Source: Lutibacter citreus (GTDB lineage: Bacteria > Bacteroidota > Bacteroidia > Flavobacteriales > Flavobacteriaceae). Taken from it: 64,000 nucleotides of DNA. Shown here piece after piece: positions 15,475-61,978 of the stretch. The notes beneath the pieces are model-generated. The model made no database searches, was not told the origin of the DNA, and saw nothing but the letters and a program-made list of their open reading frames with translations. The DNA is taken from NCBI RefSeq assembly GCF_003260195.1, contig NZ_QEIH01000006.1:248001-312000 (forward strand), read 5' to 3'. The position numbers and the translations under genes are program-made. Positions within the stretch are counted from its first letter, which is position 1. Each line of letters begins with the position of its first letter.

Positions 15475-15482
15475 TATCTTTG
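15475..15482 (+). promoter_or_regulatory. Promoter -7 box of small RNA copy A
   Basis: TATCTTTG is a perfect TAnnTTTG match, ending 7 nt before the first base of the 5' hairpin. Equivalent boxes precede the three other copies. Confidence 0.55.
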
Positions 15483-15489
15483 ACCCTAG

Positions 15490-15558
15490 TTGTGGGTTAT
15501 TTTTCCCACAATCTTTTTCATAGCAATTTACCCACCTCTCAACGATGTGGGTTTTTTT
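15490..15558 (+). ncRNA. Small RNA family, copy A
   Basis: Order of elements: 5' stem TTGTGGG (15490-15496) / CCCACAA (15505-15511), the invariant segment ATCTTTTTCATAGCAATTT (15511-15529), then terminator stem CCCAC (15531-15535) / GTGGG (15547-15551) followed by seven T. Three more copies (57710, 58082, 61907) share the invariant segment exactly but have different stem sequences that still pair. Compensatory change of this kind supports a folded RNA. Length about 70 nt. It is bounded by its own promoter box and terminator and overlaps no gene. It could belong to an Rfam family such as Flavo-1, which I cannot check. In this copy only, the 5' arm GTGGG could also pair with the terminator's CCCAC. 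Confidence 0.7.
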
Positions 15559-15652
15559 ATTTCAAAAAACAGTTTCAATTAATCTTCTGATTTATTTTAT
15601 TCACATATGAATAGAAATATCTAAACTTAAAATATATTTAAATTTAAGACAT

Positions 15653-15692
15653 AAAAAAACCACAATCCTTAAGAAAAGAATTGTGGAATATA
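15653..15692 (-). terminator. Terminator of tRNA-Gln
   Basis: On the minus strand CCACAAT (15686-15680), loop, ATTGTGG (15666-15660), then a T-run (15659-15653), directly downstream of the tRNA. Confidence 0.75.
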
Positions 15693-15696
15693 GCAG

Positions 15697-15767
15697 TTGA
15701 CCTACAAGGACTCGAACCTTGACTGACGATACCAAAAACCGGAGTGCTACCATTACACCATAGGTCA
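15697..15767 (-). tRNA. tRNA-Gln (anticodon TTG)
   Basis: The minus strand folds as a cloverleaf. Acceptor TGACCTA/TAGGTCA (7 bp, perfect), D arm GTGTAATGGTAGCAC, anticodon loop TTTTGGT giving anticodon TTG, T arm CAAGG-TTCGAGT-CCTTG, discriminator A. The CCA end is not encoded. The outermost pair of the anticodon stem is a C/T mismatch; the other four pairs are good. Confidence 0.95.
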
Positions 15768-15940
15768 TTTTGCGGGTGCAAATTTAGTGGAAAGTTTGAA
15801 TTCTGCAAATAAATTTCAACTTTTTTTTCAACTTTTTTTTAAAACATAGAGTTTTAGTACATTATTAACTAATAGTACAAAGCTTATTTTCAATAATTAC
15901 GTTTAATTTTATTAAATTCGCCACGTACAAAATAAACCAT

Positions 15941-18900
15941 ATGAATTCATTCAATTTTACTAAATGGAACACCATTCTTGGATGGGGTACATTTGCTATT
16001 GCATTAATAACCTACACCCTTACTTTAGAACCAACAGTTAGTTATTGGGATTGTGGAGAATATATTTCTACTGCAGTAAAATTAGAGGTAGGGCACCCAC
16101 CAGGAGCTCCTCTATTTCAAATGTTAGGTGCATTTTTTGCCATGTTTACAAGTGAAGTAACCGAAATAGCAAAAATGGTAAACTTTATGTCTGCTTTAGC
16201 AAGTGCTTTTACCATTTTATTTATGTTCTGGACAATTACAATTCTTGGGAGAAAATTAGTGAATAAGTCTAACGAAATTTCGTCAAGTTCATCTATTGCT
16301 GTTTTAGGAAGTGGTGTAGTAGGAGCATTAAGTTACACATTTTCAGATAGTTTTTGGTTTAGTGCAGTTGAAGGTGAAGTATACGCAATGTCTTCTTTTT
16401 TAATGGCTCTATTATTTTGGCTAGGCTTACGATGGGAAGCTCAAATAGGAAAACCAAATGGCGATAAATGGTTATTATTAATAAGTTTTGTAGTTGGTTT
16501 ATCCTTTGGTGTTCACATACTCTCTCTTTTAGTAATTCCTTCAATTGTATTTTTATACATCTATAAAAAATATAAAAACTTAAATCCAAAACAATTTATT
16601 TTAGCAAATATTGCTTCAATTTTAGTCCTTGTTTTTGTATTTAAAATGCTATTTCCTTATACTTTAAAATACTTTAGCGCCTTAGAATTGTTCTTTGTAA
16701 ATTCAATAGGATTGCCCTTTAATTCTGGAACTATTATTGCAGGAATATTGTTAATTGCTGTTTTTTATTTTGGATTAAATTATACCCACAAAAAAAATAA
16801 AGTAGAAGCTAATACATTAATTCTATCTATATTATTTATAATGATAGGTTTTTCATCTTGGCTAATGTTGCCTATTAGAGCAAATGCAGATACTACCATA
16901 AATGAAAATAATCCGTCAAGTGCGCGAGAATTATTAGCCTACTATGATCGTGAACAATATGGTGATGCAAACGTATTTTACGACACCTATTACTCAGTTG
17001 TTTTTAATAGAGATATTGATGAAAACAACCCAACAAAAGACGACAAACCGAAGTACGAAAAAAACGAAAAACTAGGTAAGTATGTTATTGTTAATCATTA
17101 CAAAGATGCACTTCCAAATTACAGTGACAAACACAAAGGTTTTATTCCTAGAATGGTAAACCCTAGCGCTTCAGTAGTTAAAAATTACAAAGCTATTGCC
17201 GGAATTCCTCAAAACAGTAAAAGAAGACCAACATTTATTGAAAACATCAAATTTATGCTTGATTTTCAATTTGGGTATATGTATGGAAGATATTTTTTAT
17301 GGAATTTTGTAGGAAGACAAAATGATGAACAAGGTCAGTTAGATTTACAAAATGGAAATTGGATAAGTGGAATTAACTTTATTGATGAAATACATTTAGG
17401 TCCGCAATCTAAATTACCTTCTGAAGTTAAAAATAATAAAGGAAGAAATACTTATTATTTCCTTCCATTAATACTAGGTCTTATTGGGTTCTTTTTTCAT
17501 CTTAAAAAAGATAAAAATGACTTTTACGTATTACTATTATTCTTTGCTTTTACAGGTTTAGCCATTATTTTTTACACAAATCCAAAACCATTTGAACCAC
17601 GTGAACGAGATTATGCAGTAGTAGGCTCCTTCTATATTTTTGCAATTTGGATAGGGTTTGGAGTATTAGCTATATTTGAAAAACTAAAAGAATTTGCCAA
17701 TAAAAACACGGTTGCAATAGCTGTTTCAGTTATTTCATTGTTAGCCGTTCCTACTTTAATGGCGTCACAAAATTGGGATGACCATGACAGATCTAATAGA
17801 TATACATCTCATTTAAATGCAAAAGCTTATTTAGATTCTTGTGATGAGAACGCAATATTATTTACCATTGGTGATAACGATACTTTTCCTTTATGGTATA
17901 TGCAAGAGGTTGAAAATTACCGAACTGATATGAAGCTTGTAAATACTAGTTTATTTCAAACCGATTGGTATATAGACCAAATGAAACGGAAAACCTATAA
18001 GGCTGATCCTATCCCTTCTCAATTAACTCATGACAAATATAAATGGGGAACTTTAGATGTGGCTTATTATTTTCCAGAATTATTCCCTCAATTAAAAGAT
18101 TCTGTTGTTAGTATTGATTATTTCATGAAATGGGTTGCAAGCGATAAAGACATCACTTATTATGATTTAGATGATGATGGAATTAAAGAAAAAGTGCTCC
18201 CTGCAAATAAAATTAGAATTCCGGTAAACAAAGAAACTGTTTTAAAAAATGGTATTGTAGCCCAAAAAGATGCAGATTTAATTGTTCCTTATATTGATAT
18301 TAAATTTGAAGGAGCATTAACAAAAAATAGAATTTTAATGCTAGATATTTTAGCAAATAATAACTGGAAGCAACCAATCTATTTTACAGGTGGAGCTCAA
18401 GCAGATGAAGAATATATTTGGCTAAAAGATTATCTACAATTAGATGCAATGACCTATAAATTGGTTCCAATTCATACTCCAAATAAAGGTAACTTTTTTG
18501 AAATGGGTAGAATTAACACAGACATTATGTATGAAAATGTTAAAAATTGGGATTGGCGAAATATTACAGATGACAACATCTATTTAGATGTTGAAACCCG
18601 AAAAAACTCAGTGACCTACAGGAACAATATGGAACGTTTAGCAAGAGAGTTAATGAAAGAGAAAAAGTTTGACAAAGCTGAAGAAATTCTTGATATATCT
18701 CTAGAAAAAATGCCCGTTAATAAATTTGGACACTATAGCATGTTAATTTCTTATATAGACTTATACTACGGTTTAAATAAGCCGGAAAAAGCAAGAAAAT
18801 TAGTTGCTGAATTAAAAATAATTTTTCAAGAAAGATTAACATATTACAGCCAATATGATGAAAATAATATTGATACTGTATTTGATGAAATTGAGAGAAC

Positions 18901-19042
18901 ATTTTTAATGTATGATCAATTGGTCAGATCTTCAGTTAAATTTGAGGACGATGAAGAATATGGTAATAAAATTAAAGATGAATATGTTGTATTTTTAAAA
19001 CTATTCGACTTTTTAATGCCTAATAAAGAAACAGCTCAATAA
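15941..19042 (+). CDS. DUF2723 multi-pass membrane protein (glycosyltransferase family 117-like)
   Basis: 1033 residues. The N-terminal ~570 residues are membrane-embedded with about 10-12 hydrophobic helices and the family start (TLEPTVSYWDCGEYISTAVK, GHPPGAPLFQM). The conserved DCGE and HPPG motifs sit in the first loop, where protein O-mannosyltransferase-like enzymes keep their catalytic acids. A long soluble part follows (SQNWDDHDRS, TIGDNDTFPLWYMQEVE, QPIYFTGGA) and ends in a TPR-like helical pair (EKKFDKAEEILDISLEK, NKPEKARKLVAEL). The family is near-universal in Bacteroidota and is classed as a polyprenyl-sugar-dependent glycosyltransferase, so protein or lipid glycosylation at the inner membrane is likely. 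The stop TAA shares its last A with the ATG of the deacetylase gene, which implies translational coupling. Confidence 0.85.
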   Translation: MNSFNFTKWNTILGWGTFAIALITYTLTLEPTVSYWDCGEYISTAVKLEVGHPPGAPLFQMLGAFFAMFTSEVTEIAKMVNFMSALASAFTILFMFWTITILGRKLVNKSNEISSSSSIAVLGSGVVGALSYTFSDSFWFSAVEGEVYAMSSFLMALLFWLGLRWEAQIGKPNGDKWLLLISFVVGLSFGVHILSLLVIPSIVFLYIYKKYKNLNPKQFILANIASILVLVFVFKMLFPYTLKYFSALELFFVNSIGLPFNSGTIIAGILLIAVFYFGLNYTHKKNKVEANTLILSILFIMIGFSSWLMLPIRANADTTINENNPSSARELLAYYDREQYGDANVFYDTYYSVVFNRDIDENNPTKDDKPKYEKNEKLGKYVIVNHYKDALPNYSDKHKGFIPRMVNPSASVVKNYKAIAGIPQNSKRRPTFIENIKFMLDFQFGYMYGRYFLWNFVGRQNDEQGQLDLQNGNWISGINFIDEIHLGPQSKLPSEVKNNKGRNTYYFLPLILGLIGFFFHLKKDKNDFYVLLLFFAFTGLAIIFYTNPKPFEPRERDYAVVGSFYIFAIWIGFGVLAIFEKLKEFANKNTVAIAVSVISLLAVPTLMASQNWDDHDRSNRYTSHLNAKAYLDSCDENAILFTIGDNDTFPLWYMQEVENYRTDMKLVNTSLFQTDWYIDQMKRKTYKADPIPSQLTHDKYKWGTLDVAYYFPELFPQLKDSVVSIDYFMKWVASDKDITYYDLDDDGIKEKVLPANKIRIPVNKETVLKNGIVAQKDADLIVPYIDIKFEGALTKNRILMLDILANNNWKQPIYFTGGAQADEEYIWLKDYLQLDAMTYKLVPIHTPNKGNFFEMGRINTDIMYENVKNWDWRNITDDNIYLDVETRKNSVTYRNNMERLARELMKEKKFDKAEEILDISLEKMPVNKFGHYSMLISYIDLYYGLNKPEKARKLVAELKIIFQERLTYYSQYDENNIDTVFDEIERTFLMYDQLVRSSVKFEDDEEYGNKIKDEYVVFLKLFDFLMPNKETAQ

Positions 19043-19671
19043 TGAAACCTTACTTTATTAAAACTCCAAAACTTGTTAAAATCATTTTCAATAAATGGTT
19101 TTGGAGTTTTAATAAAAAAGAAAAAACAATATACCTAACTTTTGATGATGGTCCAACTCCTGAAATTACAGATTGGACATTAAATGAGCTCAACAAGTTT
19201 AATGCAAAAGCAACCTTTTTCTGTATTGGTAAAAATGTAGTGAACCATCCTGAAATCTTTAAAAGATTAACTGAAAACAAACATGCTATTGGAAACCATA
19301 CCAATAATCATTTAAATGGCTTTAAAAATTCAAAAAAAGAGTATTTAACTAATTTTCAAAAAGCGGATACAACTTTATCTCACAATAGTTCAAATCTGTT
19401 TAGACCTCCTTATGGTAAATTAACTCTAAAACAAGCAAGAAACATTAGGAAACAAGATTATAAGATAATTATGTGGGATGTATTAAGCGCAGATTTTGAC
19501 CAAACTATAACTCCTAAAAAATGTTTGGAAAACGTTGTTAAAAACACAAAAAACGGAAGTATTGTTGTTTTTCATGATAGTATAAAAGCAAGCACCAATT
19601 TACAATATACGTTGCCTAAAATATTAGAATATTACACAGCCAAGGGCTACAGTTTTAAAAGTATAAATTAA
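19042..19671 (+). CDS. Polysaccharide deacetylase family protein (NodB domain)
   Basis: 209 residues, a compact NodB homology domain with no signal peptide. The metal-binding and catalytic motifs are present: TFDDGPTPE (motif 1, about residues 33-41), GNHTNNH (motif 2, metal-binding His pair, about 90-96), RPPYGKL (motif 3), MWDVLSADFD (motif 4) and VFHDS (motif 5). It should remove N- or O-acetyl groups from a glycan; the substrate cannot be told from the sequence. The start codon overlaps the stop of the DUF2723 gene, so the two probably act in the same envelope glycan pathway. Confidence 0.88.
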   Translation: MKPYFIKTPKLVKIIFNKWFWSFNKKEKTIYLTFDDGPTPEITDWTLNELNKFNAKATFFCIGKNVVNHPEIFKRLTENKHAIGNHTNNHLNGFKNSKKEYLTNFQKADTTLSHNSSNLFRPPYGKLTLKQARNIRKQDYKIIMWDVLSADFDQTITPKKCLENVVKNTKNGSIVVFHDSIKASTNLQYTLPKILEYYTAKGYSFKSIN

Positions 19672-19677
19672 CCTTTT

Positions 19678-19974
19678 TTAAACGTATTGTTGCACTAAAC
19701 TAATTAGTGAATTAGCATCTTGCTCTCCAGACTGCCTCCATTTCATTTCACCATCCTTATAGATAATAAATGTTGGATTTCCCTTGATTCGTAATGCATT
19801 TGCCAACATTTCATTCTTTTCAATATCAATCTTAATCACTTTAGCACTATCTCCTAATGCTGCAGCAACATCACGCAATATAGAATGTAAACTATCTGTA
19901 CCGTCTTCCCACTCTGTATAAAAATCGATTAAAACAGGAATCTCAGAGCCAATTAATTCTCCAAATTTTGTCAT
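19678..19974 (-). CDS. Thioredoxin-fold protein lacking the CXXC active site
   Basis: 98 residues, all one thioredoxin domain. It keeps VLIDFYTEW, VIKIDIEKN, the cis-proline loop GNPTFIIYKDG and the last helix. Where thioredoxins have WCGPC it has WEDGTD, and the protein contains no cysteine at all, so it cannot do dithiol exchange. It may be a binding or chaperone-like thioredoxin-fold protein; its function is unknown. It is convergent with the deacetylase (6-bp gap) and has its own promoter box at 20029-20036. Confidence 0.8.
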   Translation of the reverse strand: MTKFGELIGSEIPVLIDFYTEWEDGTDSLHSILRDVAAALGDSAKVIKIDIEKNEMLANALRIKGNPTFIIYKDGEMKWRQSGEQDANSLISLVQQYV

Positions 19975-20028
19975 GAATTTTTAATTTTTTTTCTCTTCAG
20001 CTTCAAAATAACTAAAGTTGCTTATATA

Positions 20029-20036
20029 CAAATGTA
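20029..20036 (-). promoter_or_regulatory. -7 box of the thioredoxin-like gene
   Basis: Minus strand TACATTTG, a perfect TAnnTTTG match, 55 nt upstream of the ATG at 19974. Confidence 0.45.
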
Positions 20037-20060
20037 ACATTTTAATTTAAAAAACTATAA

Positions 20061-21272: not shown

Positions 21273-21277
21273 AAAAA

Positions 21278-21285
21278 CAAATCTA
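21278..21285 (-). promoter_or_regulatory. -7 box of the metallophosphoesterase gene
   Basis: Minus strand TAGATTTG, a perfect TAnnTTTG match, 5 nt from the ATG at 21272. If used, transcription would begin at or within a few nt of the start codon. Confidence 0.4.
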
Positions 21286-21405
21286 ACTTTATTTTATGAT
21301 TCTTATAGAATTGTATTTTAAAATTATGAGGTATTTAACACTTGTTACTTAGCAATTTAACTTTGTGAAAAATCTATTTGCTAACATTTATCATATTTTA
21401 AATTG

Positions 21406-21413
21406 TATGTTTG
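21406..21413 (+). promoter_or_regulatory. -7 box of the secreted 256-residue protein gene
   Basis: TATGTTTG, a perfect TAnnTTTG match, 36 nt before the preferred ATG at 21450. It overlaps the upstream in-frame ATG at 21411, which argues that translation does not start there. Confidence 0.5.
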
Positions 21414-21449
21414 CGAATTAATAAATACTTAACCCCTAAAAAAATTATC

Positions 21450-22217
21450 ATGAAATTAACCGTTATTAAAAAAAATTATCACCCCTCTTCACTCATTTTA
21501 GTGTATTCTTTTTTATTTTTAACCACTTTTAGTGCATTTTCACAAGTTGGTATTGGAGAAACATCTCCAACTGCTGTACTACATTTAAAAGCAGGCACAA
21601 CAACTACAGGAACGGCCCCCTTAAAATTCACAACACAAGTAAGCCCACTAACAACAATTGAAGAAGGTACTATGGAGTATGTTGGTCACTCTCTTCAATT
21701 CTCTCAATTTTTAAAACGTAGAGGTATTGCTATGAGTGAAGATGTTAGAATAGAAACTACAGATTTAATAAATACCACCTCTGAAACCTCCCCTCCACTT
21801 GCAATTGTTCAGCATGGTCCTAATTATCTTGAAGTTGGAAAATCAGAAGAGACAGTAATAAGAGGAATTATTGAACAGAAAAGCAATAATGGTAATTTAA
21901 CCTTTCGCGTTAAATATGCAGGTACAACAATACATACCTTAGAAACAGAAGACCTTAAAGGTATCTCTTCTAATACTCCTTTTGTACTTACAATAATAGC
22001 AACTTGCCGAAGCATAGGAACTAACGGATCAATACAAATAAATTCATTTTTAGAAGTAGCAGGAGAAAAACCTGTAGGTGGAAGTACTTTAGTAAACCCT
22101 ATAAATACTAAATTAGAGGAAGACACAACTATAACAGCTAAATGGAGTGTTGCAAATACATCAAATAGTTTAACTGTTGAGCAATCTAGAACCTTATGTA
22201 TAGAACCCAATAAATAG
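21450..22217 (+). CDS. Secreted protein of unknown function (VGIGETSP type)
   Basis: 256 residues from the ATG at 21450. An upstream in-frame ATG (21411) lies inside the promoter box and would add 13 residues before the signal peptide, so it is rejected. The signal peptide (SLILVYSFLFLTTFSAFSQ) is followed by QVGIGETSPTAVLHLKAGT, the start seen on many Bacteroidota exported proteins with a phage-tail-fibre-like N-terminus. The remainder is beta-rich with no catalytic motif and no T9SS tail. A similar start (QVGIGTTSP) occurs in the convergent gene at 22344-23831. Function unknown. Confidence 0.65.
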   Translation: MKLTVIKKNYHPSSLILVYSFLFLTTFSAFSQVGIGETSPTAVLHLKAGTTTTGTAPLKFTTQVSPLTTIEEGTMEYVGHSLQFSQFLKRRGIAMSEDVRIETTDLINTTSETSPPLAIVQHGPNYLEVGKSEETVIRGIIEQKSNNGNLTFRVKYAGTTIHTLETEDLKGISSNTPFVLTIIATCRSIGTNGSIQINSFLEVAGEKPVGGSTLVNPINTKLEEDTTITAKWSVANTSNSLTVEQSRTLCIEPNK

Positions 22218-22342: not shown

Positions 22343-22343
22343 A

Positions 22344-52611: not shown

Positions 52612-53904
52612 ATGGCTTCAATAAAATTACTGCTTAGAAACACTAAATCATTAACACCCGTATCTGTTAATTACGATGTTCATATTTCGGGAAACACAAG
52701 ACTAAGAGGATCTACAAACACAAAAGTATTGCCAAAGTACTGGGATCAAAAAAAACAAAAAATTAGAAATGTAACTGATCTTTATTCTACTAAAGATAAA
52801 TTAAATAGAGATCTATTAAATTTCAAGAAATTTGTCTTAGATCAATTAGCTATTTATACTACCAATAATTTAAATGAACAAAAAGAACTTTTAAAACAAG
52901 ATATTGGAATTTATTTTGGTAGGATTGAAGCTCCAACTAATGAAGAAATGACTTTCTATAAATTTGTTGATATTTTTATTGATCAAGCAGACAACAGAAT
53001 AAACAATAGTACAGGTAAAAAATTATCCAAAAGAACTATATTAGATTATAAACTAGCAAAAAAGTTAATTGAAGATTTTGAAAATTTATACAAATACAGA
53101 ATAACATTTGAATCTATAACTTTAGAATTTTACTATTCATTTATTGAATATTTAGAAGATAAGCATAGTTTTTCAGTTAATACTATTGGTAAATACATTA
53201 AAATACTAAAAGCTTTTCTACGAGCCGCAACTGATGAGGGGTATAACAATAATTTGAGTTTCCAAAATAAAAAATTCATTAAACCTACAGCTCCTTCTGA
53301 ACAGATTTATTTAAATGAAAATGAACTTTTAAAAATTATTAAATTAGATTTAACTGAACTTCCAAAAACTAGTAACGCAAGAGATTTATTTATAATCGGA
53401 GCCTATACAGGTTTACGTGTATCAGATTTTAATAATCTCACAAAAGAAAACATTAAAATAATTCAAGGAAAAAGAATGTTTGGGTTAATTGTTCAAAAGA
53501 CTGGAAATTATTTACCGATACCTATTCATCCTCAAGTTGAAAAAATATTAAAAAAACATAAAGGTAACCCGCCACAAACAATGAAACCTCAAGATATTAA
53601 TGATGAATTAAGAATTATTGGCAGAAAAGCTAAAATAAAAGAAATTACAACCATTAACACCATTAAGGGAGGTGAAAACATTACGAAAATGGTACCGAAA
53701 TATAAATTAATTAAGAATCATACAGCTAGACGTTCATTTTGCACCAATGCCTATATTGCAGGAATGTCTACCTTAGATATAATGGCTATAAGTGGACATA
53801 CTTCAGAAAAAACCTTTCTTAATTATATAAAGATAACAGCAGATGAAAGGGCAATAAAAATTGCTGAAAATCCATTTTTTAATCCAAAATTAAATTTAAC
53901 TTAA
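52612..53904 (+). CDS. Tyrosine recombinase / integrase
   Basis: 430 residues. N-terminal arm-binding domain of the Bacteroidota type (LRNTKSLTPVSVNYDVHISG), a SAM-like core-binding domain at about 105-230 (TFYKFVDIFIDQADNRI, TILDYKLAKKLI), then the catalytic domain: TGLRVSDF with Arg269, HTARR with His370 and Arg373, SGHTSEKTFLNYIK with His396 and the nucleophile Tyr405. All catalytic residues are present, so it is probably active. It is directly adjacent to the tRNA-derived attachment site. Confidence 0.93.
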   Translation: MASIKLLLRNTKSLTPVSVNYDVHISGNTRLRGSTNTKVLPKYWDQKKQKIRNVTDLYSTKDKLNRDLLNFKKFVLDQLAIYTTNNLNEQKELLKQDIGIYFGRIEAPTNEEMTFYKFVDIFIDQADNRINNSTGKKLSKRTILDYKLAKKLIEDFENLYKYRITFESITLEFYYSFIEYLEDKHSFSVNTIGKYIKILKAFLRAATDEGYNNNLSFQNKKFIKPTAPSEQIYLNENELLKIIKLDLTELPKTSNARDLFIIGAYTGLRVSDFNNLTKENIKIIQGKRMFGLIVQKTGNYLPIPIHPQVEKILKKHKGNPPQTMKPQDINDELRIIGRKAKIKEITTINTIKGGENITKMVPKYKLIKNHTARRSFCTNAYIAGMSTLDIMAISGHTSEKTFLNYIKITADERAIKIAENPFFNPKLNLT

Positions 53905-53942
53905 AACTTAATAAAATATTAACCCTGTAATCATAATTAAAA

Positions 53943-55361
53943 GTGTATTCTGTCAAACATTCCAATCAATTCATTATTCTTACAAAAAAATTTTTAAATA
54001 ATTTAAATGATCAAAAAATAATAGATTTCTCTTTAGATTACATTCTAATGCTATGTGATGATAATCTAATCTCTTATTCAAGAGAATATATAACAAGTCT
54101 CTCGGATAAAGATTTATTAATCTTTATCCGAAAATTCATAAAAAGTTTAAATGAAAAAGACTTTTCAAATTTCTCTAAAAACGCTATAATATTTTCCAAA
54201 GGAATTGGCTTCACAGGTTTCTCTAGAGAATATTTAGATAGTTTAGAAACGTATTACGACAAGTACAAAGCAAATATATATTCTAAAGACAAGATACCTT
54301 CATATCGTTACCCATTCAAGTTTGAGGACATCTTAATTGATGATAAAATTGATGAACATTTAATGTTAACAGCATTTCTAAATTGGGATGATATCACTTT
54401 TATGCAAAAAAAGGGGATGACTATAAAAGAAGCTGAAGATTATATTAATTACTCAAATTATATATTCAACCCCAAAATAGTAGATCTCGTCTATGATTAT
54501 TATTTAGAAAACATTAGAATTTATGATGAGATGGAGGAAGAGTCACAAGATATATCTAGATTAAAAATTTCATTAAACTTTGCTTTGGGTGAAGATGACA
54601 GAATAAATATTATAAAAACAGAACATCGAAAATATTCTGAAAAACTACAAAAAAACCAATACTATTTAGACTATTTCAATGACTTTAATAAAAAAAATAT
54701 TTACAATGAAGATGGAAAAACATTTGACAACGATTTCATTAAATTATTTAAACGTAATCTCGGACAAAATGATGATTTAATGATGGACTATTTATGTGAT
54801 GGATATACATATAATTATGAGGAATTAGCATATACTGAATTTGAACCAATACAAGAGTTCGACATAATCCCAGTAAACAAAAAGCCCGATTGTGACGTCT
54901 TTGACATCTTTAATTACAGAGAGTTTCGAGGAGTTTTACATATAACAGATTGCTTTAAAGCTCTTAATTTCTTAGAATCCGAATTAAAAAATAAAATTGA
55001 TAATTCTGCAGATAACCAAATAGATAACAAAATATTTCATGATAAAATTTTCAAAACAATTGATTCACAAAATATTTTTTACAAAACACTAGATTACACA
55101 AATGTCCTCAACAATAATGGTAAAGCAAAAAAGAGAGGTTTTCAGCCTATCTGTGATGCTATATTTAATAAACCCTTTTCTTTTTTCGATGAAATATTCA
55201 AATATGGAGTAACAAAAAAAGACTATATAATATATTTAGAAAATGAATTTGATATATCTATTCCAGATAAATCTAAACTTTCAGATGGATCGAGACACAC
55301 AGAAAATGTCAAAGATTTTATTAATTCTTGCTTAAAAGAACAAAATAAAACAAAGGAATAA
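53943..55361 (+). CDS. Island protein of unknown function with N-terminal 16-residue repeats
   Basis: 472 residues from a GTG start at 53943; no suitable ATG is nearby. No family recognised. Residues about 18-82 contain four consecutive 16-residue units with the pattern L-x-D-x-x-L-I-x-[FY]-S-x-x-[FY]-I-x-S, for example LNDQKIIDFSLDYILM, LCDDNLISYSREYITS and LSDKDLLIFIRKFIKS, probably a helical-repeat stack. The rest is acidic and aromatic-rich (DDLMMDYLCDGYTYNYEELA) with no catalytic motif, signal peptide or membrane helix. The C-terminus (SRHTENVKDFINSCLKEQNK) resembles the end of small element-encoded proteins. It sits 38 nt after the integrase and before the HTH gene. Confidence 0.6.
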   Translation: MYSVKHSNQFIILTKKFLNNLNDQKIIDFSLDYILMLCDDNLISYSREYITSLSDKDLLIFIRKFIKSLNEKDFSNFSKNAIIFSKGIGFTGFSREYLDSLETYYDKYKANIYSKDKIPSYRYPFKFEDILIDDKIDEHLMLTAFLNWDDITFMQKKGMTIKEAEDYINYSNYIFNPKIVDLVYDYYLENIRIYDEMEEESQDISRLKISLNFALGEDDRINIIKTEHRKYSEKLQKNQYYLDYFNDFNKKNIYNEDGKTFDNDFIKLFKRNLGQNDDLMMDYLCDGYTYNYEELAYTEFEPIQEFDIIPVNKKPDCDVFDIFNYREFRGVLHITDCFKALNFLESELKNKIDNSADNQIDNKIFHDKIFKTIDSQNIFYKTLDYTNVLNNNGKAKKRGFQPICDAIFNKPFSFFDEIFKYGVTKKDYIIYLENEFDISIPDKSKLSDGSRHTENVKDFINSCLKEQNKTKE

Positions 55362-55449
55362 CTCTATACTCATAAACTCCGAACAAAGTCTCTTTTTTCC
55401 CGAACAAAGTATTTATCACTTTTGCATCATCAATTTTAAAACATAAATT

Positions 55450-55734
55450 ATGAAGGAAGATGCAACATTAGTACACAACATTTCAAAAGATGAATTAGTT
55501 CACAACATCCTACAAGGTTTAGAAGTTAAACTAAAAGAATTTGAAACTAAATTCCAACCAAAAGAACCTACTACTTGGTTAACTAAAAAAGAAGTTGCTA
55601 CAATATTATCAATATCTACTGTTACAGTTGATGATTGGAGTAGAAAAGGTATTCTAAATCCATTTCGTATTGGAAATCGTATAAGATTTCAACGTAATGA
55701 GGTTGAAAAAAGTTTAATTAAAATAAACGAGTAG
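55450..55734 (+). CDS. Helix-turn-helix excisionase-like DNA-binding protein
   Basis: 94 residues. After a coiled-coil-like start (residues about 10-35), a MerR/excisionase-type HTH: TTWLTKKEVATILSISTVTV, DDWSRKGILNPFRIGNRIRF, QRNEVEKSL. This type lies near the integrase of many Bacteroidota elements and acts in excision control or transcription. The next gene starts 2 nt after its stop. Confidence 0.85.
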   Translation: MKEDATLVHNISKDELVHNILQGLEVKLKEFETKFQPKEPTTWLTKKEVATILSISTVTVDDWSRKGILNPFRIGNRIRFQRNEVEKSLIKINE

Positions 55735-55736
55735 TT

Positions 55737-56048
55737 ATGAAAGACCATACAAATATTAAGAAAAACTCTTTAGCCTTAATTGATCAACTTTTACTAAACT
55801 TAAATCAAGATATTACATTCATTCTTGATCAAAACACTAAAAGGCAGTACACTAATTATATTAATGAATTAAAACATATTAGAAATTCAGTAAAAGCAGA
55901 CCCGAGATTTCCTTATCAAATTATTCAAAACCAAATAGATTATCAATTGCGCACCGATAAATTCTTAAAAGTATTTCATGTGGATTTACATCTTGATGGT
56001 TTAATTAATAATGATTTTTTCACACCAATTGTACATGGTAGCAAATAA
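55737..56048 (+). CDS. Small island protein of unknown function
   Basis: 103 residues, mostly helical (KKNSLALIDQLLLNLNQDIT, YINELKHIRNSVKADPRF), no recognised domain. It lies between the HTH and DUF3987 genes with a 2-nt gap upstream and a 14-bp overlap downstream, so it is translated as part of the element operon. Confidence 0.6.
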   Translation: MKDHTNIKKNSLALIDQLLLNLNQDITFILDQNTKRQYTNYINELKHIRNSVKADPRFPYQIIQNQIDYQLRTDKFLKVFHVDLHLDGLINNDFFTPIVHGSK

Positions 56049-57315
56049 CTCGAACCCATTCCCTTATGAAGTTTTCCCTACCGAGATAATGATATTCTTA
56101 GAACAAGCAGAGAAAACATTAAACTTTCCTATTGATTTTTTAGGAAGCTCTATTTTATCAGCTTGTTCTGTAGCTATTGGAAATACCTATAAGGTTAAAA
56201 TTAAAGAAGGCTTTTACACAAAAGCTAACTTATATATGGTAATTGTAGGTAACGCTGGAGAAGTAAAATCACACCCATTAAGCCTTGCTTACGCTCCAAT
56301 TGAAAAAAAAGAAAAAGAAAGTTATCTCAACTATAAAAAAGAAATAGAAGAGTATGATTCTTTAAATGATGATGAAAAGAAAATAAGTTTAAAACCATTT
56401 TGGAAAAAACAAATTGTAAAAGATTTCACTCCAGAATCATTAATTAAAATTCATTCTAACAATTCAAGAGGTGTTTCAATACTTTCTGATGAACTCTTTG
56501 GTTGGATAAAAAACTTTGGCAGATACAACAGTTCTAGCGAACAAGAAACATACCTAAGTTTTTGGAACGGAGGATCTATTTCAGTAGATAGGAAAAGTGA
56601 CGAACCCATTAGATTAGACAATACTTATGTAAATATTATTGGGACAGTACAAACAAAGTTATTATCTGAATTAACAAAAAACAATAGAGGTGACAATGGG
56701 TTTATAGATAGATTTCTATTTGCATTCAATCAAAATCCTAAACCAGTACTTTGGAATAATGAAAATATTAATAAAGAATCAATAGAATATTATAACTTTT
56801 TAATTCAAAGATTATTTTCTCTAGAATTTAACAATTTTAATTCAAATATAATTTGTTTCTCACCAGAAGCAAATGAGCTTCTCATAAAATGGCAAAACCA
56901 ATCACGCCGTGACTGTTTTAATGACCCAATAAAAACAGGAATATTAGCTAAATACGAGGTTTATGTTGCTAGATTTTCGTTAATCATTCAGTTAATGCAT
57001 TGGGCATTAAATAATAAATCAAATAATAAAATTGAATTATTCGCAGTTGAAAATGCTATTAAACTAATTGAATACTATACCGTTAATGCTATTATTATAA
57101 ATAATAAAATAAACAACATTAACCCTTTAGAAGAACTAACAATTAATAAGAAAGAATTATATAATAGTTTAGATTCCAATTTCACAACAGTTCAAGCTTT
57201 AAAACAAGCTGCTTTTTATAAAATAAATGAACGTGCACTCTTTCGTTTTTTAAAAAATAGAACTCTTTTCAAAAAAGAAAAGCAAGGTTTATATTCAAAA
57301 CAATTAATAATTTAA
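56035..57315 (+). CDS. DUF3987 primase/helicase-like protein
   Basis: 426 residues from the ATG at 56035, which gives the natural start MVANNSNPFPYEVFPTEIM; an ATG at 56011 is in frame but would overlap the upstream gene by 38 bp. Walker A-like loop IVGNAGEVKSHPLSLA, then GVSILSDELFGWIKNFGRYN (Walker B-like acidic pair), ETYLSFWNGGSISVDRK and VNIIGTVQTKLL, all DUF3987 features. The family is found in mobile elements and phages next to integrases and is thought to take part in element replication. The C-terminal ~70 residues look like a winged helix (NFTTVQALKQAAFYKINERA). Confidence 0.8.
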   Translation: MVANNSNPFPYEVFPTEIMIFLEQAEKTLNFPIDFLGSSILSACSVAIGNTYKVKIKEGFYTKANLYMVIVGNAGEVKSHPLSLAYAPIEKKEKESYLNYKKEIEEYDSLNDDEKKISLKPFWKKQIVKDFTPESLIKIHSNNSRGVSILSDELFGWIKNFGRYNSSSEQETYLSFWNGGSISVDRKSDEPIRLDNTYVNIIGTVQTKLLSELTKNNRGDNGFIDRFLFAFNQNPKPVLWNNENINKESIEYYNFLIQRLFSLEFNNFNSNIICFSPEANELLIKWQNQSRRDCFNDPIKTGILAKYEVYVARFSLIIQLMHWALNNKSNNKIELFAVENAIKLIEYYTVNAIIINNKINNINPLEELTINKKELYNSLDSNFTTVQALKQAAFYKINERALFRFLKNRTLFKKEKQGLYSKQLII

Positions 57316-57328
57316 TACTCGGTCAATC

Positions 57329-57392
57329 TTGTCAGTTTTGTCAGTTTCAAAAGAAAATTGAATAAATACTGTTAAAACTGACAATAATGACA
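57329..57392. repeat. Paired direct and inverted TGTCAGTTTT repeats
   Basis: TTGTCAGTTTTGTCAGTTT (57329-57347) is answered by AAAACTGACAATAATGACA (57374-57392). The outer arms TTGTCAGTTTT / AAAACTGACAA are a perfect 11-bp inverted repeat, and the second half of each arm repeats the core. No terminator T-run follows. It lies between the DUF3987 gene and a small ORF and might be a replication or transfer site, or a repressor site. Confidence 0.4.
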
Positions 57393-57412
57393 CAACATTA
57401 CAATCATAACAT

Positions 57413-57658
57413 ATGGAAAAAATAAAATTTAAAATAACTAGATTCACTGAAATACCTATTGAAATACCTCTTGAAAATCAAAGAAAATTCCCTATCCATT
57501 CTCATTATTTAAAAAGAATTGATATTTCTTATAAAATATATGAATACCTACCAACAAAACATTTAAATGAAAAAAATTACAAGGAATATATGGTAAAATA
57601 CCTTTCAGAGAAGTTAACTACAAATAAAACCAGCGTTGAAATAGAAGTTATAAACTAA
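57413..57658 (+). CDS. Small island protein of unknown function
   Basis: 81 residues, basic, with no recognised domain, signal peptide or membrane helix (MEKIKFKITRFTEIPIEIPL, LKRIDISYKIYEYLPTKH). The ATG follows an A-rich stretch 21 nt after the repeat block. Codon use resembles its neighbours. It could be a real small gene but support is limited. Confidence 0.45.
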   Translation: MEKIKFKITRFTEIPIEIPLENQRKFPIHSHYLKRIDISYKIYEYLPTKHLNEKNYKEYMVKYLSEKLTTNKTSVEIEVIN

Positions 57659-57696
57659 TATTAAAAAATTAAACTATGTAATATAATTTTTTTGTT

Positions 57697-57704
57697 TAAA
57701 TTTA
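57697..57704 (+). promoter_or_regulatory. Candidate -7 box of small RNA copy B
   Basis: TAAATTTA, one mismatch from TAnnTTTG, ending 5 nt before the 5' hairpin. Confidence 0.35.
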
Positions 57705-57709
57705 ACTCC

Positions 57710-57780
57710 TAGTAGAAATATTTCTACTATCTTTTTCATAGCAATTTTTTTTAAAAGCTCTCATTCTTCGAGAGCTTTTT
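57710..57780 (+). ncRNA. Small RNA family, copy B
   Basis: 5' stem TAGTAGAA (57710-57717) / TTCTACTA (57722-57729), then the invariant ATCTTTTTCATAGCAATTT, then terminator stem AAAAGCTCTC (57753-57762) / GAGAGCTTTT (57770-57779) and a T-run. The stem sequence differs from copies A, C and D at nearly every pair but remains perfect. It overlaps no gene. Confidence 0.7.
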
Positions 57781-57820
57781 AAATTTTCAATTATAGCTAT
57801 TTTAATGTACAGCAACAAAT

Positions 57821-57828
57821 GTTGCAAC
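57821..57828. repeat. Isolated GTTGCAAC palindrome
   Basis: The same 8-bp palindrome that forms the array at 58187-58254. Further single copies or near copies are at 58325, 58344 and 62064, all in non-coding DNA of the island. The rest of 57781-58068 shows nothing. Confidence 0.4.
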
Positions 57829-58068
57829 AATATATGATTTCAATCCTACTTCAAATTTAGATATCCCTAATTATAAAATATATCTTTTAAAACTACTAAA
57901 TAAAATATATAATACTCCTTCTTTTAAATCTGAAATAATAATTCTGAAAGATTAAAACTGATTGCAACTGGATAGCAATCACTAGATATACACTACAAAC
58001 CCCGATATTATAAAGGTCTTATTGTATATCTAAGTTGGAATTTTATAAAGATTTAATAATTTATTTCC

Positions 58069-58076
58069 TATATTTA
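58069..58076 (+). promoter_or_regulatory. Candidate -7 box of small RNA copy C
   Basis: TATATTTA, one mismatch from TAnnTTTG, 5 nt before the hairpin, the same spacing as copy D. Confidence 0.4.
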
Positions 58077-58081
58077 AAATT

Positions 58082-58152
58082 ATTGCAGAGCAAGTCTCTG
58101 TAATCTTTTTCATAGCAATTTTTTTTAAGCTCTCATTTTTATGAGAGCTTTT
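58082..58152 (+). ncRNA. Small RNA family, copy C
   Basis: 5' stem ATTGCAGAG (58082-58090) / CTCTGTAAT (58096-58104), loop CAAGT, with one G-U pair. The invariant ATCTTTTTCATAGCAATTT follows, then terminator AAGCTCTCAT (58127-58136) / ATGAGAGCTT (58141-58150) and T's. It differs from copy D by only a few bases over about 85 bp, mostly in loops. Confidence 0.7.
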
Positions 58153-58186
58153 AAATTTTAAGGAACTAACTTTGAGTGCATGTTTT

Positions 58187-58254
58187 GTTGCAACGTTTGT
58201 TGCAACGTTTGTTGCAACGTTTGTTGCAACGTTTGTTGCAAGTTTTGTTGCAGC
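58187..58254. repeat. Iteron-like tandem array of GTTGCAACGTTT
   Basis: Six units of exact 12-bp period. The first four have the perfect palindrome GTTGCAAC (58187, 58199, 58211, 58223); the last two are GTTGCAAG (58235) and GTTGCAGC (58247). The regular 12-bp phasing and palindromic core suggest a multi-site protein-binding array such as iterons or an operator. Reading frames across it are low-complexity by-products. Confidence 0.65.
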
Positions 58255-58432
58255 CTGCAACTGTTAAAATTAAAGCGCTAAATAACAATAAGTTAAGCTT
58301 CAAAAGATAGTATTCCTTTAAGGTGTTGCAAGCTGTTACTTTTGTTGCAGACTGCATTTATTTTAATGAAAACAATAACTCTTGTCGCTACGGCTTTTAA
58401 CAATAAAATAATTTAACTATCTTTTAAAAAAA

Positions 58433-58702
58433 ATGATTGAAACATTAGTCGAAGCTATTGCTAAATCAATTTCAATGGGTAAATCATTTGGAATACCAAT
58501 TGCGTTCATTGCTTTTATTATTACTATTTTAACTTATTTTCAAAAGCAAGGAGAAGAAGCAAGGCATAGAGATTTACCTGAAGAAGAAAGAGAAAAAGTA
58601 GAAAGAAAAAAGCAAGAAATTAGACTTAACCGATGCATTATATCAATAATTGTAGTGATTGTAATAATCATATGGCTGATTTATGAATACTTTTCATCTT
58701 AA
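58433..58702 (+). CDS. Small two-helix membrane protein
   Basis: 89 residues. Two transmembrane helices (FGIPIAFIAFIITILTYF at about 19-36 and IISIIVVIVIIIWLIYEYF at about 69-87) joined by a highly charged cytoplasmic or periplasmic loop (EEARHRDLPEEEREKVERKK). No family recognised. It ends 10 bp from the end of the convergent protease gene. Small two-helix proteins are frequent as toxins or effectors in defence loci, but nothing here proves that. Confidence 0.6.
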   Translation: MIETLVEAIAKSISMGKSFGIPIAFIAFIITILTYFQKQGEEARHRDLPEEEREKVERKKQEIRLNRCIISIIVVIVIIIWLIYEYFSS

Positions 58703-58712
58703 AAAAATATCT

Positions 58713-59522
58713 CTAATTATTTCTTAACTCAAGTTTTAATTTCCATTCTTCAATCATTCTCAACTTTTCATTATTTAAATAAGTTCCCACACCATTGATT
58801 GAATTGACCCCAACTACATAAAACTCACCATTCCTTTTTACCATAATTGGAGACCCACTATTACCTTTCAATGTTTTAAGGCTATGTGTAAAATACCCCT
58901 TACCAACTTTTATAACTATCGAGGTATCTAAAGTCATTAAATACTTACCTCCATAAGGTTCTTCGGCTGGATATCCCGCACAAAAAATAGTATCCCCTTT
59001 AACTAATTTTTTACTACTATCCTTAAGTAGTTTTAAATATCGAAGTGAATTTAATTTTTTATTCTTATTTAAAATTTCATCTGGAATATAAATTAAAGCT
59101 ATGTCATTATCTTTTCTCGTCCAAGGAAAATAAAAAAAATACTTCTTTGGGTATTTAATATTTTTTCGATATCTAATTTTGATAAATACTGAATCTAATA
59201 ATTTATCGCTTCCAATTCTTGACGGGAATAACGTTAGCTTTTTAACAGAATGAAACGGCAACTTTGTTACGTTATGAGCCGAAGTAAGCAAGAAATTTCT
59301 TGAAATAAAAAATGCTGTTGAGTTTTTAATACTACCAGTAAATGGGAATCGTCTTACATCTTGGTATGAAATTGAATTAAAGCCATTTAATTCAATTTCT
59401 TCTTTAGAAATTTGATCAATAAATAAGGTCTGAGAATTACTTTTTCCACTTATACAAAGAGCCAATAAAAAAATAATCACAATCTTGTTGAAGTTTGAAT
59501 TTGATGTTTGAGCAAATACCAT
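58713..59522 (-). CDS. Secreted trypsin-like serine protease
   Basis: 269 residues. A hydrophobic signal segment at about 13-29 (KIVIIFLLALCISGKSNSQ) suggests export to the periplasm or beyond. The chymotrypsin-fold triad is complete: FLLTSAHNVT (His83), RKDNDIALIYI (Asp140), LKGNSGSPIMV (Ser222), with a following VVGVNS strand as in V8/glutamyl-type S1B proteases. It is 33 bp downstream of the 681-residue gene on the same strand, so the two form an operon. Its target is unknown. Confidence 0.82.
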   Translation of the reverse strand: MVFAQTSNSNFNKIVIIFLLALCISGKSNSQTLFIDQISKEEIELNGFNSISYQDVRRFPFTGSIKNSTAFFISRNFLLTSAHNVTKLPFHSVKKLTLFPSRIGSDKLLDSVFIKIRYRKNIKYPKKYFFYFPWTRKDNDIALIYIPDEILNKNKKLNSLRYLKLLKDSSKKLVKGDTIFCAGYPAEEPYGGKYLMTLDTSIVIKVGKGYFTHSLKTLKGNSGSPIMVKRNGEFYVVGVNSINGVGTYLNNEKLRMIEEWKLKLELRNN

Positions 59523-59555
59523 AATAAAATATTTTTTTATTAGACATATATATTA

Positions 59556-61601
59556 TTATTTATTCTTTTTATTAGTTTTAGATAGATTAAATAAGGGTAT
59601 ATCTACCATTAAGGCAAGGCTTGTTCTTAATACACTTTTTTCATCTAGAACATTGTTAATTTCAATTTCTCTCAATAATGGTGTGAATTGGCAACCTAAA
59701 GAAAGTGCCAATGGTGCATTCTTAAATCCATAAATAAAATAAAAACCTGGTGAAAATATTTGTTTCCATGTTATATTTTCTGGAAGGCCTTCTGCGGAAT
59801 CATTTTTAAACCTATAACTAAAAGGCGCTCCGATATCTATTATTGAAAAAAACAAAGAACTTGATGAAGATAATTCAGCTTCTGGGGTTAATTTCTTATT
59901 ACGGGTTGAAACAGAAAATCCAATTGGTGCGGTTATTCCAAAATTTCCACTTTCACTATTGGAGTGTTCATATCCAAAATATAATCCAGGATAAGCACTA
60001 ACATCTATAGAATAATCGAACCGTCTTTTTATTCGATAAGAACCAACAGGCAAAGCATAATTATTTATAATTTCTTTTATATCTACATTTTTATTCTCAG
60101 AAGCATTAATAACATCAACTAAAAAATTACCATAATAAATCAAAGAATTTATTAGCTCATTATCACTATCTACATCCGATACATGTTTCAAAAAACTTAT
60201 AGTTGATAATAAACTTTCTCCATAATTTTCACTTCCAATACTTCCAAAAAATATTTCAATATCTTTTGAAATAGGTAAATATTTTTTATACAAATTAGAA
60301 CCATAATAGTCCTCATCATTATAAAGTTTAAATGAAATTTCTATAGAATTATTTAAGGCTTTCAAAACAGAATTTAAATAAGAAAAATAGATCTTTAAGC
60401 TATCCTCACCTTCTGTTTTCTTGGTTATTTCTAGAGTGTTTTTAACATTATTTAATTCGGATACAATTTTTTTCACTCCATTATATAATATGTAATAATT
60501 ATCTTTTGTTATTAATTCTTTTAATGTAATTACGGTATTATTATTCTTTACTTTGATATTTTCAAACAATTTGCTATTCACTCCTTGTTGATATATAAGT
60601 CCTAAAAAATATTTTGCATTATATTCATAATCATATTCCAAAATATCTGACATATTAATCCAATCTTTCTTATTCTCAAATTCATCAACTTTAGTACAGT
60701 TTTTTGCTACTAGACTAAATAAACCAAAGTATGTGTCAAAATTATTTATATCATAATCTAAATTGGAATAATTTATATCTTCCAGAATTTCAATAGGATG
60801 ATAACCTTTTTCAACTTTGTCAATAATCTCATAAGTAAGTAAGAAATATTTTCCTATATCAGAGTTTCTAAACTCTTTATTCTCTTTAATTATGTTAGCA
60901 GATGTTTTTGGTAAATTATTAAGATCCTTTTTAAATGCGGTAATCCAAGTTTGACCTAAAGACGGAACGTCAAAAAATTGCCTGTTATCAATTAATAAAA
61001 ATGTATTTGGCAACAATGTTTTGGCTTGAATATTAATATTTATTGTGTTGTTGTTTAATTTTATAGGAAAATATAATGTATCACTTAGTTTACTCCTAAA
61101 ATTATCAAAAAATGTCAATGTTAATTCTTGTTTTGTCCTTTCAACTAAAAATCGAGACATTGCATCAATAATTTCGGTTGGTAATGATTTTCCAGAACTT
61201 GCTGTAGAATTACTGATCAGATCATGATTGTTAGATCCAACCACAAGAACCTCATCTAAAATTAGTGAATCAAGATAAATAGGAGCAATTTTGGTAGTCT
61301 CAATATTTACAGCTCTGATATCCTTAATTATTTTCATTAATTCTTTCACATTAATTTGCTCTAAATCTTTATTAAAAGGATTGTCAAGAAAAAATCTGAA
61401 ATTATTTAGAGCGTTTTTAGTTTTAACATCTATAGGATACTTATTATTTACACTTTCGGTACTAATAATAACATCTTGAATTTCGTGAACTCCATAATCC
61501 TCAATAATCATAGATTCCAAATATGCATTTTGTGAGTAAGAATTTAGATTAATTAAAATAATAAATGAAAAGTACAGCAATACATTAGTGAAGGTTTTCA
61601 T
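59556..61601 (-). CDS. Exported protein of unknown function with predicted C-terminal outer-membrane barrel
   Basis: 681 residues. Signal peptide KTFTNVLLYFSFIILINLNS, then a long largely helical region to about 500 without recognised motifs (FFLDNPFNKDLEQINVKELM, ITAFKKDLNNLPKTSANII). The last ~170 residues alternate hydrophobic and polar residues as in a barrel: DYSIDVSAYPGLYFGYEH, NFGITAPIGFSVSTRN, SLFFSIIDIGAPFSYRF, PGFYFIYGFKNAPLALSLG, RTSLALMVDIPLFNLS. This looks like a periplasmic domain anchored to the outer membrane. It is co-transcribed with the trypsin-like protease and could be its substrate, regulator or sensor. No homologue was recognised. Confidence 0.65.
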   Translation of the reverse strand: MKTFTNVLLYFSFIILINLNSYSQNAYLESMIIEDYGVHEIQDVIISTESVNNKYPIDVKTKNALNNFRFFLDNPFNKDLEQINVKELMKIIKDIRAVNIETTKIAPIYLDSLILDEVLVVGSNNHDLISNSTASSGKSLPTEIIDAMSRFLVERTKQELTLTFFDNFRSKLSDTLYFPIKLNNNTININIQAKTLLPNTFLLIDNRQFFDVPSLGQTWITAFKKDLNNLPKTSANIIKENKEFRNSDIGKYFLLTYEIIDKVEKGYHPIEILEDINYSNLDYDINNFDTYFGLFSLVAKNCTKVDEFENKKDWINMSDILEYDYEYNAKYFLGLIYQQGVNSKLFENIKVKNNNTVITLKELITKDNYYILYNGVKKIVSELNNVKNTLEITKKTEGEDSLKIYFSYLNSVLKALNNSIEISFKLYNDEDYYGSNLYKKYLPISKDIEIFFGSIGSENYGESLLSTISFLKHVSDVDSDNELINSLIYYGNFLVDVINASENKNVDIKEIINNYALPVGSYRIKRRFDYSIDVSAYPGLYFGYEHSNSESGNFGITAPIGFSVSTRNKKLTPEAELSSSSSLFFSIIDIGAPFSYRFKNDSAEGLPENITWKQIFSPGFYFIYGFKNAPLALSLGCQFTPLLREIEINNVLDEKSVLRTSLALMVDIPLFNLSKTNKKNK

Positions 61602-61893
61602 AGTAAATTTTTTTGGTTAGTTATTATTTAACAACAATCACTTTCAATTAAATAAAAGATAATAATGCGTTTAAATAATGAACTAAATATACAAAAAAAA
61701 TTTAAACAACTGATAATCTATCGTTTATAGATTTTAAATATTTATATTTTACTTGAAACATGACTATAAAATTCTGCCAAATAAATTGGAATACTTTTAT
61801 TTAATAGATATTTGATTAAACCAACTTTTACAGTATCGTTTTTAATTAACAATACTTTACCTCCAATTGGAAATTCCATATAGTCTAATAAAT

Positions 61894-61901
61894 TATATTT
61901 G
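61894..61901 (+). promoter_or_regulatory. -7 box of small RNA copy D
   Basis: TATATTTG, a perfect TAnnTTTG match, 5 nt before the hairpin. TTG at 61867-61869 is a possible -33 element, but its spacing of 24 nt is long. Confidence 0.5.
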
Positions 61902-61906
61902 AAATT

Positions 61907-61978
61907 ATTGCAGAGTAAGTCTCTGTAATCTTTTTCATAGCAATTTTTTTTAAGCTCTCCTTTTTTGAGAGCTTTTAA
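61907..61978 (+). ncRNA. Small RNA family, copy D
   Basis: 5' stem ATTGCAGAG (61907-61915) / CTCTGTAAT (61921-61929), loop TAAGT, the invariant ATCTTTTTCATAGCAATTT, terminator AAGCTCTC (61952-61959) / GAGAGCTT (61967-61974) and T's. It lies between the 681-residue gene and hsdR, oriented opposite to both. The rest of 61602-62094 holds one GTTGCAAC at 62064 and no credible gene. Confidence 0.7.

Follow-up and report, generated by a model that had tools for sequence, protein, structure and literature searches.

Small RNAs (sRNAs) with a short unpaired motif have been described in cyanobacteria and in Bacteroidota. Yfr1/Yfr10 is a nearly universal cyanobacterial small RNA that is described as inhibiting translation initiation; its conserved motif is single-stranded between two stem loops, and in a second family it lies in the loop of a stem (PMC6778093). 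FopS of Bacteroides thetaiotaomicron is reported as a 14-copy sRNA family whose single-stranded seed pairs at start codons, and FopS and GibS have a sigma-ABfr promoter and a terminator, with a mention of the sequence in phage (PMC11697453, PMC7366714). FopS is further described as open at its 5′ end, with no hairpin there, as acting with the RRM protein RbpB, and as deposited in Rfam (PMC11697453). The Rfp RNAs of Flavobacterium psychrophilum are presented as independent small transcripts, some of them conserved in the genus; deletion of rfp18 lowers two protease messenger RNAs (mRNAs), and Rfp18 is predicted to pair through its third stem-loop (PMC9723704). Here we analyzed 64,000 nucleotides (nt) of Lutibacter citreus (contig NZ_QEIH01000006.1, positions 248,001 to 312,000, the whole of this stretch being called the window), in which an earlier note had described four copies of a stand-alone small RNA, hereafter the core RNA, with an invariant 19-nt linker. 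We propose that they belong to one family of predicted sRNA genes whose core is found in 295 of 349 Flavobacteriaceae genomes, and that these RNAs probably silence mRNAs by pairing with their start codons, a proposal that rests on comparison of sequences and on predicted folds and pairing.

The 19-mer core, ATCTTTTTCATAGCAATTT, is present exactly in all four elements, as had been claimed, at 15511-15529, 57729-57747, 58103-58121 and 61928-61946 of the window. In shuffled windows, matches with three mismatches or fewer averaged 0.37, and none of 100 shuffles reached four matches. The parts of the four copies are as follows.

15475-15482, + strand: copy A, promoter-like box TATCTTTG, from sequence; predicted transcription start site at ~15487
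15490-15558, + strand: copy A, predicted sRNA gene, from the fold and a profile match of 40.5 bits
15490-15511, + strand: copy A, 5′ hairpin of 7 base pairs (bp), predicted fold
15511-15529, + strand: copy A, core (19-mer), predicted to be unpaired except for its first base
15530-15559, + strand: copy A, terminator hairpin and T run, from sequence and predicted fold
57697-57704, + strand: copy B, promoter-like box TAAATTTA, from sequence
57710-57782, + strand: copy B, predicted sRNA gene (hairpin 57710-57729, core 57729-57747, terminator 57753-57779)
58069-58076, + strand: copy C, promoter-like box TATATTTA, from sequence
58082-58152, + strand: copy C, predicted sRNA gene (hairpin 58082-58104, core 58103-58121, terminator 58127-58150)
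61894-61901, + strand: copy D, promoter-like box TATATTTG, from sequence
61907-61980, + strand: copy D, predicted sRNA gene (hairpin 61907-61929, core 61928-61946, terminator 61952-61974)

In each element, the order is box (TAnnTTTG or TAnnTTTA), 5′ hairpin, core (predicted to be unpaired) and intrinsic terminator. The hairpins, open center and boxes had all been pointed out before, and our folds and box positions agree with that description. Both hairpins are formed and the core is open in the predicted folds of all four copies, the 5′ stems absorbing no more of the 19-mer than its opening one or two bases, and the fold z-scores of copies A to D are -5.36, -5.71, -4.53 and -4.48, with none of 200 shuffles as good in each case. 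In F. psychrophilum, the sigma-A box TAnnTTTG is placed at -12 to -5 (PMC9723704), and this spacing puts the predicted 5′ end of the RNA at or just before the first hairpin. When the window was searched with a sequence profile, copies A to D scored 20.5-40.5 bits and everything else at most 6.5 bits.

The family is larger than the four copies first counted, as the genome of Lutibacter citreus (5.1 Mb, 35 contigs) contains nine. Eight of them have the exact 18-mer and one has A for T at base 1. A genome search at up to two mismatches returned 16 places, seven of which were not taken as copies; five of these seven were inspected with their flanks, and they do not have the hairpin-core-terminator layout. 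Since none of the seven extra places was accepted as a copy, the invariance of the core, another claim of the earlier note, is not merely an effect of the search. Copies in related genomes, which the earlier note had suggested looking for, are plentiful. A 16-mer of the core occurs in each of the 37 genomes examined from the same genus, with between two and nine places per genome, including a few gene starts. The 17-mer CTTTTTCATAGCAATTT occurs in the 295 Flavobacteriaceae genomes mentioned above (258 of 290 genomes of good quality; 205 of 237 when counted by genera), and its reversed control gave one match. The usual count is one per genome, and most others in the family carry one or two; Lutibacter citreus has the maximum in the 349-genome table, followed by a genome with eight. 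Among 23 genomes from other families of the order, three contain the 16-mer, once each, and the one of these places that was inspected (L017) is a gene start and not an sRNA. A scan of species genomes gave at least 118 stretches; among the 80 titles listed, 79 are Bacteroidota and one is Verrucomicrobia, where the match is the start of a long reading frame. One query of plasmid records returned no convincing copy. Such conservation across genera would also suit a single fixed partner, as if the core paired with another stable RNA, such as ribosomal RNA or an sRNA sponge or antagonist of the kind that Yfr2 is for Yfr1, and not with mRNAs. The seven other sites at up to two mismatches were viewed as reading frames only, and one of them starts a long frame (L015). 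We consider a stable-RNA partner quite improbable.

The stems of the RNA change in sequence while their pairing is kept. A rule-based search found a terminator after 142 of 160 distinct cellular places, and in 132 of these 142 the 5′ stem reaches 6 bp or more, whereas 20 rounds of shuffling gave 44 on average and never more than 54; both 142 and 132 include one false positive (L116), a gene start that the terminator rule misread as a copy and that was left out of the arm-swap, neighborhood and column-count analyses. Distinct 5′ arms number 31 among 36 copies in one set and 86 among 98 in the other. For the 35 Lutibacter copies, the pairing score was 9.39 with their own arms and 4.75 with swapped arms (highest of 200 trials, 5.85), and for 101 other copies it was 10.29 versus 4.89 (highest of 200 trials, 5.38). 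Up to six pair types occur at a single position; the groups for these column counts were built from the best stem, so that full pairing is partly by construction, although the variety of pair types is not. We note that the sequences are related by descent, and these pairing statistics are not formal probabilities. A MAFFT alignment of 60 picked sequences minus two (L116 and the weak L084) gave a model that had no base pairs, the hairpins having been misaligned, and it served as a sequence profile only. The proposal of a ~70-nt RNA whose stems compensate and whose unpaired center is functional is therefore supported, as pairing is kept despite replacement of the sequence and the core is kept as well; own arms scoring far above swapped arms also favor the covariation that had been expected of a larger set. 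If the elements were instead portable terminators or recombination sites acting as DNA, the presence of a terminator and the copies in mobile DNA and tandem arrays would be accounted for. A terminator or DNA site, however, has no need of a promoter box, a covarying 5′ hairpin or a fixed open core, and the arm-swap result and the box kept in 84 of 87 copies of the dnaJ cluster also argue against it, so that we regard this possibility as very remote.

Comparison with described families suggests that the core RNA is a separate one. The earlier note had left open whether it was a known Rfam family, for example Flavo-1, and a search of Rfam 15 with the RNA in the window and 20 loci found no family at the gathering cut-off, Flavo-1 included. 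The best matches below the cut-off, in a Polaribacter locus (L061), are to unrelated enterococcal and leader families at E ~0.01 and half the cut-off score. Flavo-1 (RF01705), by its name also a small RNA of Flavobacteria, has a model match elsewhere in another Polaribacter locus (L055) and not at the core RNA, and is a separate family. No match named FopS or GibS was found for copies A to C and L061 in Rfam at E ≤ 5, the presence of a FopS model in that library not being established. Among the papers searched, text queries on flavobacterial sRNAs found no such family, and none of these papers had the letters of the core. Like that of Yfr1, the conserved motif lies unpaired between two stem-loops in the predicted folds; unlike Yfr1, the RNA belongs to another phylum, its core is antisense to a start codon, and copies are found in phages and mobile DNA. 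The core sequence also differs from the Yfr1 motif of cyanobacteria, ACUCCUCACAC. As with FopS and GibS, this is a multicopy family of Bacteroidota, with nine copies in Lutibacter citreus and one or two in most genomes of the family, but it differs from FopS in its 5′ hairpin, found in all four window copies and as a stem of at least 6 bp in 132 of 142 places. It also differs from Rfp18 in having two hairpins, not three or more; one or more Rfp RNAs may be the F. psychrophilum form of the dnaJ-linked copy described below. Since the layout is that of Yfr1 and the proposed action that of FopS and GibS, and it lacks defining features of both, we file the core RNA as a new family within a known kind of sRNA, absent from Rfam 15 at the cut-off for the window and 20 loci.

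The core is antisense to GCU-AUG-AAA-AAG, and its reverse complement, AAATTGCT-ATG-AAA-AAG-A, reads as a gene start. Its complementarity to a translation start, together with the phage copies and the dnaJ-linked copy, goes beyond the earlier note. In the mechanism that we favor, the RNA would be transcribed from the TAnnTTTG box, and the 5′ hairpin and the terminator would shield its ends and keep the core open. Pairing of the core, UUUUUCAUAGC, with GCUAUGAAAAA, which would lie at the start or 5′ end of target mRNAs, would then keep ribosomes from entering, in bacteria without Shine-Dalgarno pairing. The sRNA would act in trans and prevent translation initiation in the manner of Yfr1 or FopS; FopS and GibS (PMC11697453, PMC7366714) and Yfr1 (PMC6778093) are precedents that support such a reading. 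The likeliest target in Lutibacter would be a recombinase mRNA that starts exactly with GCU-AUG, and through copies in phages and elements the host cell would receive an identical core. If this is true, Flavobacteriaceae, which are abundant in the sea, soil and fish, would have a family-wide regulatory RNA, and its core would show how antisense control can do without Shine-Dalgarno sequences, the start codon being what is masked.

Pairing energies were calculated for 848 start regions, after 56 of 904 had been dropped because their loci had been fetched by the antisense pattern. At -10 kcal/mol or better, the core pairs with 22 of 400 start regions, whereas shuffled cores gave a mean of 7.7 and 4 of 150 shuffles were as good. 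The difference between start and coding windows was as extreme in 3 of 150 shuffles by count and in 11 of 150 by mean.

The likeliest predicted target in Lutibacter, judged from its leader, is an integron-integrase-like recombinase. Three hits of the antisense pattern in the genus are one recombinase family, and a fourth (L319) coincides with one of its members (L364). The recombinase has phage integrase domain matches, and it reaches 200 bits with the integron-integrase model, below the cut-off of 265. A start was obtained for 29 of 30 Lutibacter loci, and 28 of these starts are distinct, the ATG with a promoter-like box being chosen where one was present. GCT precedes ATG in 26 of the 28, versus 15 of 848 background genes. 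In 24 it stands at the chosen ATG, and in two (L364 and L365) at an out-of-frame ATG 17 bases upstream; the remaining two starts have GTT, which retains a G.U pair. A promoter-like box lies at -15 to -8 in most of these loci, so the recombinase mRNA is predicted to begin with GCU-AUG. Leader positions -5, -6, +8 and +9 are variable, and the conserved block is thus about as long as the pairing. Lutibacter citreus has three copies or fragments of the recombinase, at or near contig ends, all with TGCT-ATG. Should start-codon pairing hold, this leader offers a sharp single-gene prediction.

Some further observations concern the recombinase itself. It has ~100 extra N-terminal residues and is found at E ≤ 1e-60 in 139 of the 349 Flavobacteriaceae genomes. 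Many of the matches lie at contig ends, as if beside repeats, and no convincing direct repeats, the sign of an integron array, were seen behind the recombinase in four loci. L364 and L365 contain a six-codon upstream frame that begins at TGCT-ATG and whose stop overlaps the next ATG, possibly a leader peptide.

Several results weigh against start-codon pairing. The preference of the core for start regions is modest, with no clear gain over internal ATGs at -10 kcal/mol (37 of 848 starts versus 32 of 848 internal sites) and a mean energy slightly better at internal ATGs (-5.84 versus -5.66 at starts). Perfect antisense sites (AATTGCTATGAAAAAH, 15 fixed bases) are rare, at 69 places in 349 genomes with ~21 for the reversed control, and the 30 that were fetched belong mostly to unrelated genes, several not being gene starts. 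TTGCT precedes ATGAAAAA ~1.6 times as often as the neighbor expectation (32 versus 20, a hand count among the matches listed in a wider YTGYY scan). The recombinase was found through a search for antisense sites, hence with selection, and its conserved GCU could by itself serve near-leaderless translation. Outside Lutibacter, GCT is present in only 3 of 25 recombinase loci with a start, though the core is kept, and the recombinase would therefore be a lineage-specific target. Finally, no known sRNA chaperone was found in the Lutibacter citreus genome with the RRM_1 and Hfq models.

The rarity of perfect targets, together with internal ATGs that pair nearly as well, would also be expected if the core were a protein-binding site, with the RNA titrating or recruiting an RNA-binding protein and the complement of a start site being incidental. 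The core is conserved more strictly than pairing by an sRNA normally demands, and dosage varies through extra copies and phages. Of 141 copies, 11, some of them close relatives, have a second TTCATAG within the 5′ hairpin region, where shuffles expect 0.57; such repetition of a motif is often seen with protein sites, but we also count it in favor of start-codon pairing. On the other hand, the antisense of the core holds a start codon in a typical start context, and the Lutibacter recombinase leaders match the core in nearly all species examined. The partner would also have to be some protein other than RRM_1 or Hfq: RRM_1 has no match in Lutibacter citreus (8 of 25 genomes of the genus have one), which sets the core RNA apart from FopS and makes a partnership of the RbpB type unavailable in this species by that search, and Hfq has no match above the cut-off in 40 genomes. 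We regard a protein site as unlikely. A weak Hfq-like match was seen in one Lutibacter genome (G012:C1:665554-665655, L289; E 4e-4, below the cut-off).

Other candidate targets were tried and rejected. For the genes that neighbor the RNA, the number of 60 shuffled cores that paired as well was 8 for dnaJ, 40 for grpE, 2 for the ABC ATPase, 23 for the ABC permease, 1 for an upstream gene (U3a), 26 for the MscS-like gene and 10 for the epimerase-like gene. The low values for the ABC ATPase and U3a were not counted because the mean energy was ~-6 kcal/mol and seven families were tested. A Zn-ribbon gene has a mean energy of -11.7, better than all 100 shuffles and aided by a fixed ATGAAAA, but it was rejected as a conserved target, with the full antisense in 5 of 28 Lutibacter starts, GCT in 9 of 28 and a leader that varies. 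In 38 genomes, TTGCTATGAAAAAH occurs at 35 places and TTCGTATGAAAAAH at 15, a comparison that was set aside because CpG is depleted and the 35 include at least one sRNA copy. Separately, two lipoprotein-like genes from different genera (L325 and L336), alike by eye, have a full antisense site at their start.

The usual location of the RNA is behind dnaJ. Neighbors were examined for 135 copies in 129 loci, and dnaJ lies directly upstream on the same strand in 83 loci (84 copies), 49-322 nt from its end to the core, its frame being only partly caught by the ATG rule in ~12 of these loci. Three further copies, in a tandem array (L156), follow a different J-domain gene. Across the resulting cluster of 87 copies the median distance is 71, TAnnTTTG is present in 84 and a stem of at least 6 bp in 82. 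The next gene upstream again belongs to a grpE cluster in 74 loci, and in 52 places the first gene downstream encodes an ABC-transporter ATPase. A Pfam check of one representative per cluster, and of the Lutibacter citreus dnaJ, returned DnaJ, GrpE, ABC_tran, ABC2_membrane_3 and MS_channel. Behind dnaJ there is hardly any space for a further terminator, so that the dnaJ message may be a second source from which the RNA is released. In two Lutibacter loci (L002 and L018) and two Polaribacter loci (L055 and L061), the RNase P RNA gene starts ~60-70 bases past the core. The dnaJ-linked copy of Lutibacter citreus is located on another contig (C22), between dnaJ and the RNase P RNA gene, and is not copy A. 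A second recurrent neighborhood was seen in five loci (L042 and four others), where a small membrane-protein-like gene directly follows the RNA.

Copies B to D stand in a different setting, and the surroundings in the window are as follows.

11061-15191, - strand: gene of a hybrid two-component regulator, neighbor of copy A
15696-15767, - strand: tRNA-Gln gene, neighbor of copy A
52612-63936, no strand assigned: span of the genes of a likely integrative element with copies B to D, from Pfam matches

The genes for a tyrosine integrase (52612-53904), an HTH_17 protein (55450-55734), a DUF3987 protein (56011-57315) and a type I restriction subunit (62095-63936) are likely to form one integrative element, with copies B to D in or beside it. 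Copy A stands elsewhere than at the usual position behind dnaJ.

Copies are also found in phages. A scan of viral contigs gave at least 120 stretches and at least 101 new places, at least 35 of them with a terminator. A profile search of 47 viral stretches, selected with earlier stem and terminator results in view, and of two named phages gave 25 matches at 26 bits or more, the same element being seen twice in two cases (L350/L278 and L351/L269). Neighbors of the viral copies that were tested include NinB-like, sigma-factor-like and integrase genes. Polaribacter phage Leef_1 has a copy in an unannotated gap before a neck gene, and Tenacibaculum phage Gundel_1 has one in an unannotated gap before a tRNA cluster. 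Tandem arrays of four (L443) and three copies (L444, the same array as L156) occur in two other genomes at a spacing of ~250-490 bases. If the core acts as proposed, the phage and mobile copies would be a test case for host takeover at the RNA level. A more ambitious version, in which a family-wide riboregulator behind dnaJ caps start codons or the near-leaderless 5′ end of the recombinase mRNA and has been captured repeatedly by phages and elements, restraining host recombination, seems to us rather doubtful.

The array L443 adjoins a small frame that resembles, by eye, the membrane protein beside Lutibacter copies. Right after copy C, at 58185-58250 of the window, there are short tandem units of the TTGTTGCAACG type, and words related to these units are found near 57815, 58345 and 62060.

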